64,000 nt of DNA from Rhodospirillales bacterium (GCA_016214125.1 JACRPC010000039.1:1-64000); one strand, 5' to 3'; positions 32,640-40,605 are shown, counted from the first letter of the stretch. Notes: a model not told the origin generated them from the sequence alone. A program made the numbers and translations.

Positions 32640-32668
32640 GAGACAGCCACAATTATAGTAGGTATAAT
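32640..32668 (+). promoter_or_regulatory. Probable promoter of the molybdoenzyme cluster
   Basis: GAGACA at 32640-32645, spacer of exactly 17 bases, perfect TATAAT at 32663-32668. It sits in the AT-rich 239-base gap before the small secreted protein. A nearby inverted repeat (ACATG at 32602-32606, CATGT at 32616-32620) may be an operator; this is only a suggestion. Confidence 0.6.
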
Positions 32669-32724
32669 ATCGGCCACAAGACGGGCAGGCTTAATTCCGT
32701 AAGTGGCACGAGCTACATCGGGGG

Positions 32725-32985
32725 ATGGGGGGCACATCGAAAATGGTTTCGACGCATTGCTGCGCCGCGCTGATGGTTGCTTATTTGACAATCATTTTCG
32801 TCACCCAAGCTCAAGCCGCCCCTCCCGAACCTGTCGCCAAGACCGTTGCGCCCGCACTCAAGGCGCAGGGCGGCTGGTACACGCCGCTCACCCGCCCCGG
32901 CATGCCGGCGCCCTACGATATCAACGGTTACCACAAGCCCAGCGAACCGAAGCCCGCGCCATCGGGCGGCGATCGCAAGCGATGA
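32725..32985 (+). CDS. Small secreted proline-rich protein
   Basis: 86 residues. A signal-like stretch (CCAALMVAYLTIIFVTQAQA) ends near residue 31; the mature peptide of about 55 residues is Pro/Ala/Lys-rich (APPEPVAKTVAPALKAQGG, then YTPLTRPGMPAPYDINGYH). No Cys remains after cleavage and no family is recognised. The start may be the ATG at 32725 or the one at 32743. First gene after the promoter at 32640-32668, so probably the first member of the cluster. Confidence 0.65.
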   Translation: MGGTSKMVSTHCCAALMVAYLTIIFVTQAQAAPPEPVAKTVAPALKAQGGWYTPLTRPGMPAPYDINGYHKPSEPKPAPSGGDRKR

Positions 32986-33021
32986 GTTTTTACCCCTCGC
33001 CGAAACGCGATGGGACGATCC

Positions 33022-37515: not shown

Positions 37516-37546
37516 CGTTCGCGGCGATTCCCGCTATATCGGGCGC

Positions 37547-39460
37547 ATGAATTCCGTGCGCGACATTCCGGTGCGTCGGCCGCTTGGCCGTACCTTCGCC
37601 CTGGCCTTGGCCGGGGGCATGGCGGCGGCCTCGCTGGCGCTGCTGATCGTCTTCATCAGCCTCTACAGCGGCAAATTGGCCGAGGAGCGCGCCCAAGCCT
37701 CGGACCAGGTCAACCGGCTTTTGCAGGCGACCTTGGAGAACGCCATGCTGAAGCGCGACCTGCCCGGCCTGATGGAGGTGGTGGAGCGCCTGGGCCGCCA
37801 GGACGGCATTTTGGGCGTTACCATCGTCAATCCCAAGGGCGAGGTCCGCTTTGCCTCGCGCAGCGAGTCGCTGGGCGAGCGCCTCGATCGCGCCACCCAT
37901 CCCGGTTGCCAGGGCTGCCACAACGCCAAGGGCGAGATCGTCGGGCGCACCGTCTTCATCAAGGACGAGCTCGGGCGCGAGGTTCTGCGCAGCGTCAATC
38001 CGGTGCGCAACAAGGAGCCCTGCACCCAATGCCACGGGCCGGTGGCGACCAGCCCGGTCAACGGCGTCCTTATTGTCGATTACGACGCCCGCCCGATTCG
38101 CCAATCGGCGCGCGCCACGGTGTTGGTCTTCGTCGCCGCCGGCGGCGCCCTTCTTGTCGCCTTGATGTTGGGCGTCTGGCTTCTGGTGCGCCGGCTGGTG
38201 CTGCGTCCGATCGGCGGACTGCATCGCGCCAGTTCGGCCTTGGCGGCAGGCGATCTTGGCGTCAGGGTGGCGGTCGAAGGCGAGGACGAATTCGCCCTCA
38301 TGGCCGAAACCTTCAACGGCATGGTCGATTCGCTGCGCGGCCGCATGGCGGAAATTCGCGACCAGAAGGCTTTTCTCCAGGCCCTGATTGACGCGACACC
38401 CGATGGCATCCGGGTGATCGACGAGGCTTGGACGATCATGCTGGCCAACCGCGCCTATGGCCTGCTGGTCGGCGCCGGGCCCGACGACGATGTCGGCAAG
38501 ACCTGCCACCAATCCTCGGCCAACCGCGACGCCCCTTGTCCGCCCACCCTGATCGCCTGTCCGATCGAGGCGATCCGGCGCACCGGCCAACCGGTGAAAT
38601 CGGTTCAGGAATTCCACCGCCCCGACGGTACGGTGATCGAGGCCGAGGTGGTGGCGGCGCCACTCGAATTGACGCTCGACGGCAAGGCCCGGCGCCTGGT
38701 GGTGGAATCCTGCCGCGACCTGGCACGCGAGATTCGCTTCTCGCACGAACAGAAGCTTTCGGCGGTTGGCCAGCTTGCCACCGGCGTCGCCCACGAAATC
38801 CGCAATCCCCTGGCCTCCATCCGGCTCGCCTTGCAAAGCCTGCTGCGCGCCGCCGCCGCTCCGGACGCGCCGCCCGGCATCGCCACCTTCCGCGACTATC
38901 TCACCTTGGTCGACGGCGAGATCGACAAGTGCATCGACGTCACCAACCGGCTGTTGCGGCTTAGCATGGTGCCAGGCGAAGCCCGCCATCTGATCGACCT
39001 CAACAAGGCAATCACCGAGACCTTGTCCCTCTTGGCCTTCGAAGCCGAGGAATCCGGCGTTGCCGTCATCTTCGACCTCGACCCCACCCAGCCGCGCATC
39101 TTGGCCACCGAGGCCGATCTGCGCATGGTCGTGCTTAATCTGGCGCAGAATTCCTTTCACGCCATGCCTCGGGGCGGTAAGCTCACCCTTTCGACCAAGG
39201 AGAGCGAGGGCCGCGTGCGCCTGATCGTCGCCGACACCGGCATCGGCATAGCGCCGGCACATCTGCGCCGCGTGTTCGAACCCTTCTTCAGCCATCGCGC
39301 CGATGGCGTCAACGGGACCGGGCTGGGGCTTTCGATCACCAAGGGCATCGTCGAAAGCCTGGGTGGCTCGATCGCGGTCGAAAGCGCGCCCGGCCAAGGC
39401 GCCCGCTTCACCATCGTCCTGCCCTCGGCCGCCACCGCCGTGGAGGGCAATCCGGCATGA
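37547..39460 (+). CDS. Sensor histidine kinase with two c-type haem motifs in the periplasmic domain
   Basis: 637 residues. Helix 1 at about 17-40, periplasmic domain to about 187, helix 2 at about 190-215, HAMP (about 216-270), PAS (275-385), HisKA (phospho-His 416 in VAHEIRNPLAS) and HATPase (NLAQNSFHAM, DTGIGI, GTGLGLSI). The periplasmic part has two CXXCH motifs, CQGCH (121-125) and CTQCH (159-163). The PAS also carries Cys320, Cys331 and Cys338 (TCHQ, PCPP, ACPI). It likely senses redox state, a haem ligand or electron flow in the periplasm. ATG at 37547. Its stop overlaps the regulator gene by 4 bases. Confidence 0.92.
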   Translation: MNSVRDIPVRRPLGRTFALALAGGMAAASLALLIVFISLYSGKLAEERAQASDQVNRLLQATLENAMLKRDLPGLMEVVERLGRQDGILGVTIVNPKGEVRFASRSESLGERLDRATHPGCQGCHNAKGEIVGRTVFIKDELGREVLRSVNPVRNKEPCTQCHGPVATSPVNGVLIVDYDARPIRQSARATVLVFVAAGGALLVALMLGVWLLVRRLVLRPIGGLHRASSALAAGDLGVRVAVEGEDEFALMAETFNGMVDSLRGRMAEIRDQKAFLQALIDATPDGIRVIDEAWTIMLANRAYGLLVGAGPDDDVGKTCHQSSANRDAPCPPTLIACPIEAIRRTGQPVKSVQEFHRPDGTVIEAEVVAAPLELTLDGKARRLVVESCRDLAREIRFSHEQKLSAVGQLATGVAHEIRNPLASIRLALQSLLRAAAAPDAPPGIATFRDYLTLVDGEIDKCIDVTNRLLRLSMVPGEARHLIDLNKAITETLSLLAFEAEESGVAVIFDLDPTQPRILATEADLRMVVLNLAQNSFHAMPRGGKLTLSTKESEGRVRLIVADTGIGIAPAHLRRVFEPFFSHRADGVNGTGLGLSITKGIVESLGGSIAVESAPGQGARFTIVLPSAATAVEGNPA

Positions 39461-40605
39461 ACCGGCGCATCCTGGTAATCGAGGACGATTCGGTCCTCAA
39501 CAAACTTCTGTGCGACGGGCTGAACCGGGCCGGCCACAGCGCCAAGGGGGCCCGGCGATGGACCGAGGCCGAGCGCCGCCTGAGCGAGGAAAGCGTCGAT
39601 CTGGTTCTGCTTGATGTCAGCCTGCCCGATGCCGACGGGCTTGACATCCTGCCGAAGCTGGCCGAACGCCAGCCGGTGATCATCCTGACCGCCTATGGTT
39701 CGGTGCAGAATGCGGTCGCGGCCATGAAACGGGGCGCCGCCGAATATCTGGAAAAGCCGATCAATCTCGACGAGCTTGAGGTGGCGGTGGCGCGCGTGCT
39801 TGAGGTCGCCGCGCTCAAGCGCGACCATCTCTTCATCAAAAGCCGGGTCGAGGCGCTCACGCCGCACAATCTGGTCGGCTCGAGCGCGGCCATGACCGAG
39901 CTTCGCCAACGGATCGCCGCCCTGGCAAAATCGGACGCGCCGATCTTGATCCGGGGCGAATGCGGCACCGGCAAGACGCTGGCCGGCAATTTGATCCATG
40001 CCCAAAGCGCCCGGGCCAAACGCAATTTCGTCATTCATGACGGCAGCGCCCATCTGGGCCGGGACTTTCTCACGGCGCTGTTCGGTGCCGAGCCCGATCC
40101 CAAGGCGCCCGGCAGCCCCTCGCGCACCGGACTCATCCTCGATGCCGAGGATGGCACCTTGTTCCTGGACGCGGTGGCCGAGGTCGACGCGGAGGCGCAG
40201 GAGACGTTGTTGCGCCTCCTGGAATCCGGGCTTTACCGCCGGGTCGGCGCCCAGAACGACCGGGCGGTTCAGTTGCGCGTCATCGCCGCCACCAGCCGCG
40301 ATCTGGAATCGATGGCGCGCGCCGGCACCTTCCGCCCCGCTTTGCTCGAGAAGCTGGGCGGCCAGACCGTCCACCTGCCGCCCTTGCGACAAAGGAAGGA
40401 GGACATCCCCGAACTGGCCGCCTATTTCCTGGGCCATATCCAGATTTCCCACCCGGTGGGCAAGCATCTGACCCAATCCGCCCTGGATCGGCTGCTGGCC
40501 TATGACTGGCCGGGCAACATCCGCGAGCTGCGCAACATCCTTGAGCGGGCGATGATCCTGTCGGGCGAGGGCGCCCAGATCGCACCCGAGCACCTGGTTC
40601 TTTAG
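39457..40605 (+). CDS. NtrC-like response regulator with degenerate AAA+ domain and no DNA-binding domain
   Basis: 382 residues. REC domain (1-115): Asp53 phosphoacceptor in LLDVSLPD, Thr78, Lys100. AAA+ domain (about 138-382): Walker A GECGTGKT (167-174) is kept, but the sigma54-contact GAFTGA loop is absent (the region reads LFGAEPDPKAPGSPSRTG) and Walker B reads LFLDAV in place of LFLDEI, losing the catalytic Glu. The protein ends at EHLVL right after the AAA+ lid, so the Fis-type HTH is missing. It probably does not activate sigma54 in the normal way. No frameshifted HTH fits in the space before the next gene. Confidence 0.9.
   Translation: MNRRILVIEDDSVLNKLLCDGLNRAGHSAKGARRWTEAERRLSEESVDLVLLDVSLPDADGLDILPKLAERQPVIILTAYGSVQNAVAAMKRGAAEYLEKPINLDELEVAVARVLEVAALKRDHLFIKSRVEALTPHNLVGSSAAMTELRQRIAALAKSDAPILIRGECGTGKTLAGNLIHAQSARAKRNFVIHDGSAHLGRDFLTALFGAEPDPKAPGSPSRTGLILDAEDGTLFLDAVAEVDAEAQETLLRLLESGLYRRVGAQNDRAVQLRVIAATSRDLESMARAGTFRPALLEKLGGQTVHLPPLRQRKEDIPELAAYFLGHIQISHPVGKHLTQSALDRLLAYDWPGNIRELRNILERAMILSGEGAQIAPEHLVL

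Follow-up and report, generated by a model that had tools for sequence, protein, structure and literature searches.

Comparison with described systems

The described systems closest to the gene cluster analysed here, which lies at positions 32640-40605 of a 64,000-nucleotide stretch of Rhodospirillales bacterium DNA (GCA_016214125.1 JACRPC010000039.1:1-64000; the whole stretch is called the window), are DmsABC and YnfEFGH of Escherichia coli. The cluster shares with them the DmsA fold branch, a serine ligand, a DmsB-like subunit with 16 cysteines, export by twin-arginine translocation (Tat) and, in most relatives, a dedicated chaperone. In contrast, its catalytic subunit has a histidine at the third position of the motif for the iron-sulfur (FeS) cluster FS0, is ~36% identical to E. 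coli DmsA and belongs to a separate clade. There is no DmsC anchor, and the cluster contains a pentahaem protein and class I cytochrome c, a haem kinase, a sigma-54 regulator, and Met-rich and smallW proteins. The extracellular dimethyl sulfoxide (DMSO) reductase of Shewanella (DmsEFABGH) is similar in that a multihaem cytochrome serves a DmsA/DmsB pair. However, DmsE carries ten haems and the Shewanella system depends on the outer-membrane barrel DmsF, whereas the pentahaem protein scores 24.7 against the DmsE cut-off of 192.2 and no outer-membrane barrel family recurs among the cluster neighbours.

The type II enzymes (dimethyl sulfide dehydrogenase DdhABC, SerABC, PcrABC and EbdABC) are likewise soluble and periplasmic and exchange electrons with a c-type cytochrome. 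They have an aspartate ligand and a histidine at the first FS0 position, whereas the enzyme of the cluster has a serine ligand, a cysteine at the first position and a histidine at the third, and scores 210.9 with the type II profile against a cut-off of 984.75. In hypochlorite defence (MrpX with YedYZ/MsrPQ) a periplasmic molybdoenzyme also adjoins a Met-rich periplasmic protein. However, YedY belongs to the sulfite oxidase family rather than to the DMSO reductase family and receives its electrons from a membrane haem protein, and control is exerted by SigF/NrsF or another two-component system. The haem-c sensor domains of GSU0935 and GSU0582 (PDB 3b42, 3b47) have the same Cache/PAS fold with a CXXCH haem site as the sensor of the cluster, but they are found in chemoreceptors and not in a kinase adjoining the enzyme that it probably controls.

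Gene calls and profile searches found seven genes in a single run on the plus strand of the window, exactly the gene list of an original prediction made from the DNA alone (Table 1). They form a genuine and conserved unit, an uncharacterised variation on DmsAB that has a cytochrome route and a haem sensor of its own.

The catalytic subunit forms a separate clade

A scan of bacterial genomes returned 179 relatives of the catalytic subunit, of which 80 were kept. The latter are 72-78% identical and span alpha-, beta- and gammaproteobacteria. Across the 299 genomes of the phylum that were sampled, identity drops from at least 72% inside the clade to 42% in one genome (G450) and then to 34-38% in DmsA proteins. 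A tree of 52 rows sets the clade apart on a long stem of 1.75 (support 100/99) and also separates the DmsA/YnfE group (100/99); the placement of far paralogues and TorA is unsure because their branches are long. The original prediction could not match the gene set to a known system, and the tree indeed placed the catalytic subunit outside any characterised clade.

Pfam and NCBIfam profiles assign the protein to the DMSO reductase family. The DMSO, trimethylamine N-oxide (TMAO), type II, thiosulfate/polysulfide, arsenate, formate and nitrate families were all ruled out by profile scores far below their cut-offs together with the tree. A phmmer search of the PDB with the catalytic subunit found no near relative, the top match being TMAO reductase at 261 bits.

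The third FS0 position is a histidine in all 87 clade rows which cover the site and also in the sequences L102-L105, while it is a cysteine in all DmsA proteins and in L106. This histidine (His67 in the window) is a probable ligand of the FeS cluster. Ser206 is kept in 88/88 sequences and aligns with the molybdenum-ligating serine of DmsA and TorA. L106, the intermediate relative from G450, has the motif CGHNCGGRC, with a histidine in the loop and the third FS0 cysteine retained. By three tested features (the dmsA_ynfE cut-off, a DmsC/NrfD anchor and a four-cysteine FS0 site) the enzyme is not a DmsABC reductase.

The best profile is nevertheless dmsA_ynfE, at 617.8 bits under a curated cut-off of 777.7. 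This argues for a respiratory reductase of DMSO or another terminal acceptor (an N-oxide or oxyanion) that differs from DmsABC solely in its periplasmic cytochrome route. Shewanella DmsA is served by multihaem cytochromes, and a weak TIGR03508 match was found here; DMSO respiration was also suggested by the authors of PMC6872982. The ~36% identity to DmsA, the separate clade and the missing quinol oxidase partner speak against such a reductase, as does strong expression in hosts that use oxygen (PMC12172469). Counts of Zoogloeaceae dmsA genes, which may belong to this clade, also did not rise with DMSO in saltmarsh incubations (PMC10689795). Respiration is the third of the explanations weighed here and appears improbable.

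Conserved neighbourhood

Near the catalytic gene, the DmsB gene was found in 78 of the 80 relatives and the pentahaem gene in 77. Among the 28 loci that extend 7 kb or more in each direction, the pentahaem and DmsB genes were present in every one and the kinase and regulator in 25. The grouping is far beyond chance, and the seven gene families do co-occur in many genomes. With the catalytic subunit also outside characterised clades, neither of the outcomes named in advance as refuting the original prediction occurred. Of the 87 loci analysed, 72 contain a TorD chaperone gene and 41 encode an additional 4Fe-4S protein. The smallW family was detected in 44 loci with the motif QGxWYTPF..PGM..PYDIR.WH; modelling the small secreted protein with AlphaFold gave no useful information (predicted template modelling score 0.43, mostly coil).

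No DmsC/NrfD gene occurs in the window run, and a DmsC match of any kind lies near the cluster in only 1 of the 80 relatives, so the membrane anchor is absent from the gene set as originally predicted. YnfH and TorC matches were found in 1/80 loci each, and no quinol partner belongs to the cluster.

A complete cluster is carried by the conjugative plasmid pEJ01 of Rhodobacter xanthinilyticus (L101:9146-20128), and therefore the unit can move. The genes on pEJ01 are annotated merely as a molybdopterin-dependent oxidoreductase and hypothetical proteins. Two families with no Pfam or NCBIfam match also occur near the cluster: one of ~270 aa in Thiodiazotropha-type loci (L068:6332-7144) and one of ~160 aa in some alphaproteobacterial loci (L045:13851-14327).

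Of the 55 loci that extend far enough upstream, 51 have a Met-rich frame there (no control frame contains more than 6 Met per 40 aa), which makes it nearly as constant as the cytochrome gene. The four loci without it are orphan catalytic copies missing the rest of the cluster. Among the orphan copies, which lack most of the cluster as well as the Met-rich gene, are L073, L076 and L091 (Chromatiaceae, Thiotrichaceae and Thiomargarita).

This constancy favours the best rival explanation, a periplasmic methionine sulfoxide (MetO) reductase. The Met-rich protein would be a sacrificial oxidant trap, re-reduced by the molybdoenzyme with electrons from cytochrome c, while the haem kinase would sense the oxidant; the arrangement would resemble MrpX with YedYZ/MsrPQ, a DmsA-type enzyme taking the place of YedY. 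In known systems Met-rich peptides adjoin methionine sulfoxide reductases (PMC4623255, PMC8550376), PMC7402097 reports the reduction of protein-bound MetO by a periplasmic DMSO reductase, and the serine ligand is like that of S-oxide reductases. However, the cluster has no electron donor at the quinol level, and reducing MetO with electrons from a cytochrome c-550 would be awkward on thermodynamic grounds. The Met-rich repeat may have a metal-binding or structural role instead, and co-regulation with aprAB (PMC12172469) points to catabolism. An S-oxide reductase of this kind is rather unlikely. The original suggestions that the Met-rich protein guards against metal or oxidant stress and that the kinase monitors periplasmic electron flow or an oxidant are hypothetical.

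Electron-transfer proteins

All 16 cysteines of the DmsB-like subunit are invariant across 84 sequences. In the pentahaem protein (81 sequences) the five CXXCH motifs and His35, His91, His94 and His193 are invariant, a set which is consistent with mostly bis-His haems. No near relative of this protein was found in the PDB. In Rhodobacterales it is fused to an N-terminal class I, cytochrome c-550-like domain, suggesting that the electron route passes through cytochrome c. A separate class I cytochrome c gene lies beside the cluster in 13 gammaproteobacterial loci. Because the cluster has no quinol partner, the simplest reading is probably an exchange of electrons between the enzyme and the cytochrome c pool.

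Sensor kinase, regulator and promoter

The kinase was originally predicted to bind two haems. The kinase does have a sensor domain of c-type haem character, with predicted haem binding: the second CXXCH motif is invariant (54/54; C159, C162 and H163 in the alignment), and the predicted model of the sensor (predicted local distance difference test 86.6) matches Cache/PAS sensors including GSU0935 (PDB 3b42, E 2.6e-4) and GSU0582. The Pfam Mcp40H-20_sensor family was matched by 42 of 53 sensors. The presence of two motifs, on the other hand, is restricted to the window and its order-mates L121 and L122. The two-haem description therefore stands for these three only and fails elsewhere, and since the second motif alone is invariant, the conserved sensor is predicted to bind one haem.

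The response regulator, which had been called unusual, turned out to be a truncated form of an ordinary sigma-54 activator. The window copy lacks the GAFTGA loop and the helix-turn-helix (HTH) domain, both of which are present in L121, L122 and most relatives. An unusual regulator as a designed feature was ruled out by these intact copies in order-mates.

A sigma-54 promoter was found at a constant distance before the small-protein gene in 17 of the 28 loci with a GAFTGA regulator and in 0/7 without one (Fisher 0.008, with independence overstated as the loci are related). In four loci which have the Met-rich gene first or another layout, the sigma-54 site is farther upstream. The window belongs with the loci whose regulator lacks GAFTGA: no well-scoring sigma-54 site was detected in window 32001-33500, and the place taken by a sigma-54 promoter in relatives holds a candidate sigma-70-like promoter (32640-32668). 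Some Rhodobacterales (including L058, L072, L083, L090 and L094) have a regulator without GAFTGA but with the HTH kept, and their sigma-54 site is gone. Judging from Rhodobacterales, control has apparently been transferred to sigma-70 on more than one occasion.

The small secreted protein of the window is also shortened, with its central part missing from the alignment, and the window operon has no TorD gene. Together with the truncated regulator and the absent sigma-54 site, these features identify the copy in the window as a derived form, and the sigma-54 switch has been lost or rewired in this organism. The same genome has a second clade copy (G000:C24:4605-7112; L002, L009), which is 73% identical and adjoins a TorD gene but lacks DmsB, the pentahaem protein and the kinase. 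Upstream of the window cluster, at 30447-32485, the divergent neighbours encode an SsuA/NMT1-type binding protein and a radical SAM protein.

Table 1. Position of the genes, motifs and candidate promoter of the cluster in the window.
Feature	Position	Strand	Remarks
Sigma-70-like promoter, GAGACA-17-TATAAT	32640..32668	+	Weak: 1 found, 0.5 expected by chance
Small secreted protein, smallW family	32725..32985	+	Profile match E 6.8e-25
Met-rich secreted protein	33098..33412	+	17 Met in 104 aa; Gly every third residue; GMS/GMA/GQK repeats
Periplasmic pentahaem cytochrome c	33504..34286	+	Five invariant CXXCH
DmsA-like catalytic subunit	34288..36822	+	Tat signal SRRGLLKG
FS0 motif C59-x3-C63-x3-H67-x38-C106	34462..34605	+	In catalytic subunit; His67 where DmsA has Cys
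Ser206, probable molybdenum ligand	34903..34905	+	Aligns with Ser of DmsA and TorA
DmsB-like four-cluster FeS subunit	36832..37515	+	16 invariant Cys; TIGR02951 194.8 bits, cut-off 214.1
Histidine kinase: periplasmic haem-c Cache/PAS sensor, HAMP, PAS, HisKA, HATPase	37547..39460	+	
First CXXCH of kinase sensor (CQGCH)	37907..37921	+	Only in window, L121 and L122
Second CXXCH of kinase sensor (CTQCH)	38021..38035	+	Invariant, 54/54
Truncated NtrC-type response regulator	39457..40605	+	Receiver and AAA+ only; GAFTGA lost, no HTH

Carriers and the enzyme of lucinid symbionts

The cluster occurs mostly in bacteria that oxidise sulfur: many of its carriers are known to do so, and soxB scored above its cut-off in 31 of 48 carrier genomes. 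A strict tie of the cluster to soxB was tested and not found. Cultured carriers include Rhodobacter xanthinilyticus LPB0142 and Thiolinea disciformis DSM 14473. Candidatus Thiodiazotropha endoloripes strain E (L042, LVKA01000015) is also a carrier. The genomes of T. endoloripes and of four related symbionts each have a single strong dmsA-like gene, which is the clade member (614-631 bits, below the dmsA_ynfE cut-off, with the next at most 241), and the same holds for dmsB-like genes.

A highly expressed gene annotated as DMSO reductase, with an unverified substrate, has been reported in lucinid symbionts (PMC6872982, PMC8090883, PMC12172469). In these symbionts dmsAB lies upstream of soxY-S1c, yeeE and dsrAB (PMC11237559). 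Expression of dmsB increased from 479 to 2553 and from 1248 to 3540 transcripts per million (TPM) in the season when aprA and aprB rise, and dmsD increased from 412 to 2149 and from 1031 to 2969 TPM in the same season; these changes of 2.8- to 5.3-fold coincide with rising sulfur oxidation genes (PMC12172469). Cytochrome c oxidase genes were high in both seasons and oxygen was similar at both sampling times (PMC12172469).

The published symbiont genes are probably members of this clade, because the clade copy is unique in the symbiont genomes; this identification is based on uniqueness and not on locus tags. The claim that the system is undescribed is therefore only partly right, as the enzyme had already been reported under the annotation of DMSO reductase. 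For the gene set itself no description was found in the literature searched.

Proposed mechanism

The account tentatively preferred here is that a periplasmic enzyme oxidises a reduced sulfur compound and hands the electrons via the pentahaem protein to cytochrome c. Four observations favour oxidation: the fusion to cytochrome c, the lack of a quinol partner, the kinds of bacteria that carry the cluster, and joint regulation with sulfur oxidation. The soluble periplasmic molybdoenzyme would have a catalytic subunit with a molybdenum bis(pyranopterin guanine dinucleotide) cofactor, a serine ligand and a histidine-ligated FS0. Electrons would pass from this subunit through the four FeS clusters of the DmsB-like subunit to the pentahaem cytochrome, and from there through class I cytochrome c to a terminal oxidase or denitrification. 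The oxidising direction appears most likely, with a reduced sulfur compound as the electron donor. For a relative of DmsA the most conservative chemistry would be that of a thioether such as dimethyl sulfide, and sulfane or sulfite species may also be used. The haem-c sensor kinase would respond to a redox or ligand signal in the periplasm, and the NtrC-type regulator paired with it would turn on the sigma-54 promoter before the operon.

Several points weigh against an oxidative sulfur enzyme. To our knowledge, the nearest characterised relatives with a serine ligand are all S- or N-oxide reductases, and cytochrome c is able to feed a reductase of a high-potential acceptor as well. Around one third of carrier genomes lack soxB, and within the order of the window soxB is present in 4/6 carriers compared with 121/317 genomes, which is no clear enrichment. 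The Met-rich protein has no role in the sulfur-oxidation account. In addition, the season of high dmsB expression included low-oxygen periods (PMC12172469).

Significance

Annotators, including those of abundant marine symbionts, give the enzyme of this clade the name DMSO reductase, and from it they deduce that DMSO is respired anaerobically. This inference is unsafe, because the clade is separate, the FS0 ligation is different, there is no quinol anchor and the enzyme is linked to cytochrome c. The cluster gives a genomic context to the DMSO reductase of clam symbionts, which is strongly expressed but had been unexplained. It is possible, though more doubtful than the general oxidative account, that the cluster represents a previously unassigned step of sulfur oxidation: a periplasmic, cytochrome c-linked dehydrogenase of a sulfur compound, of DmsA type with a third-position FS0 histidine, which would be induced by a haem-c kinase via sigma-54 and would be among the main catabolic enzymes of lucinid symbionts. 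The clade provides a defined gene set, which makes the role of the most expressed molybdoenzyme of clam symbionts directly testable.

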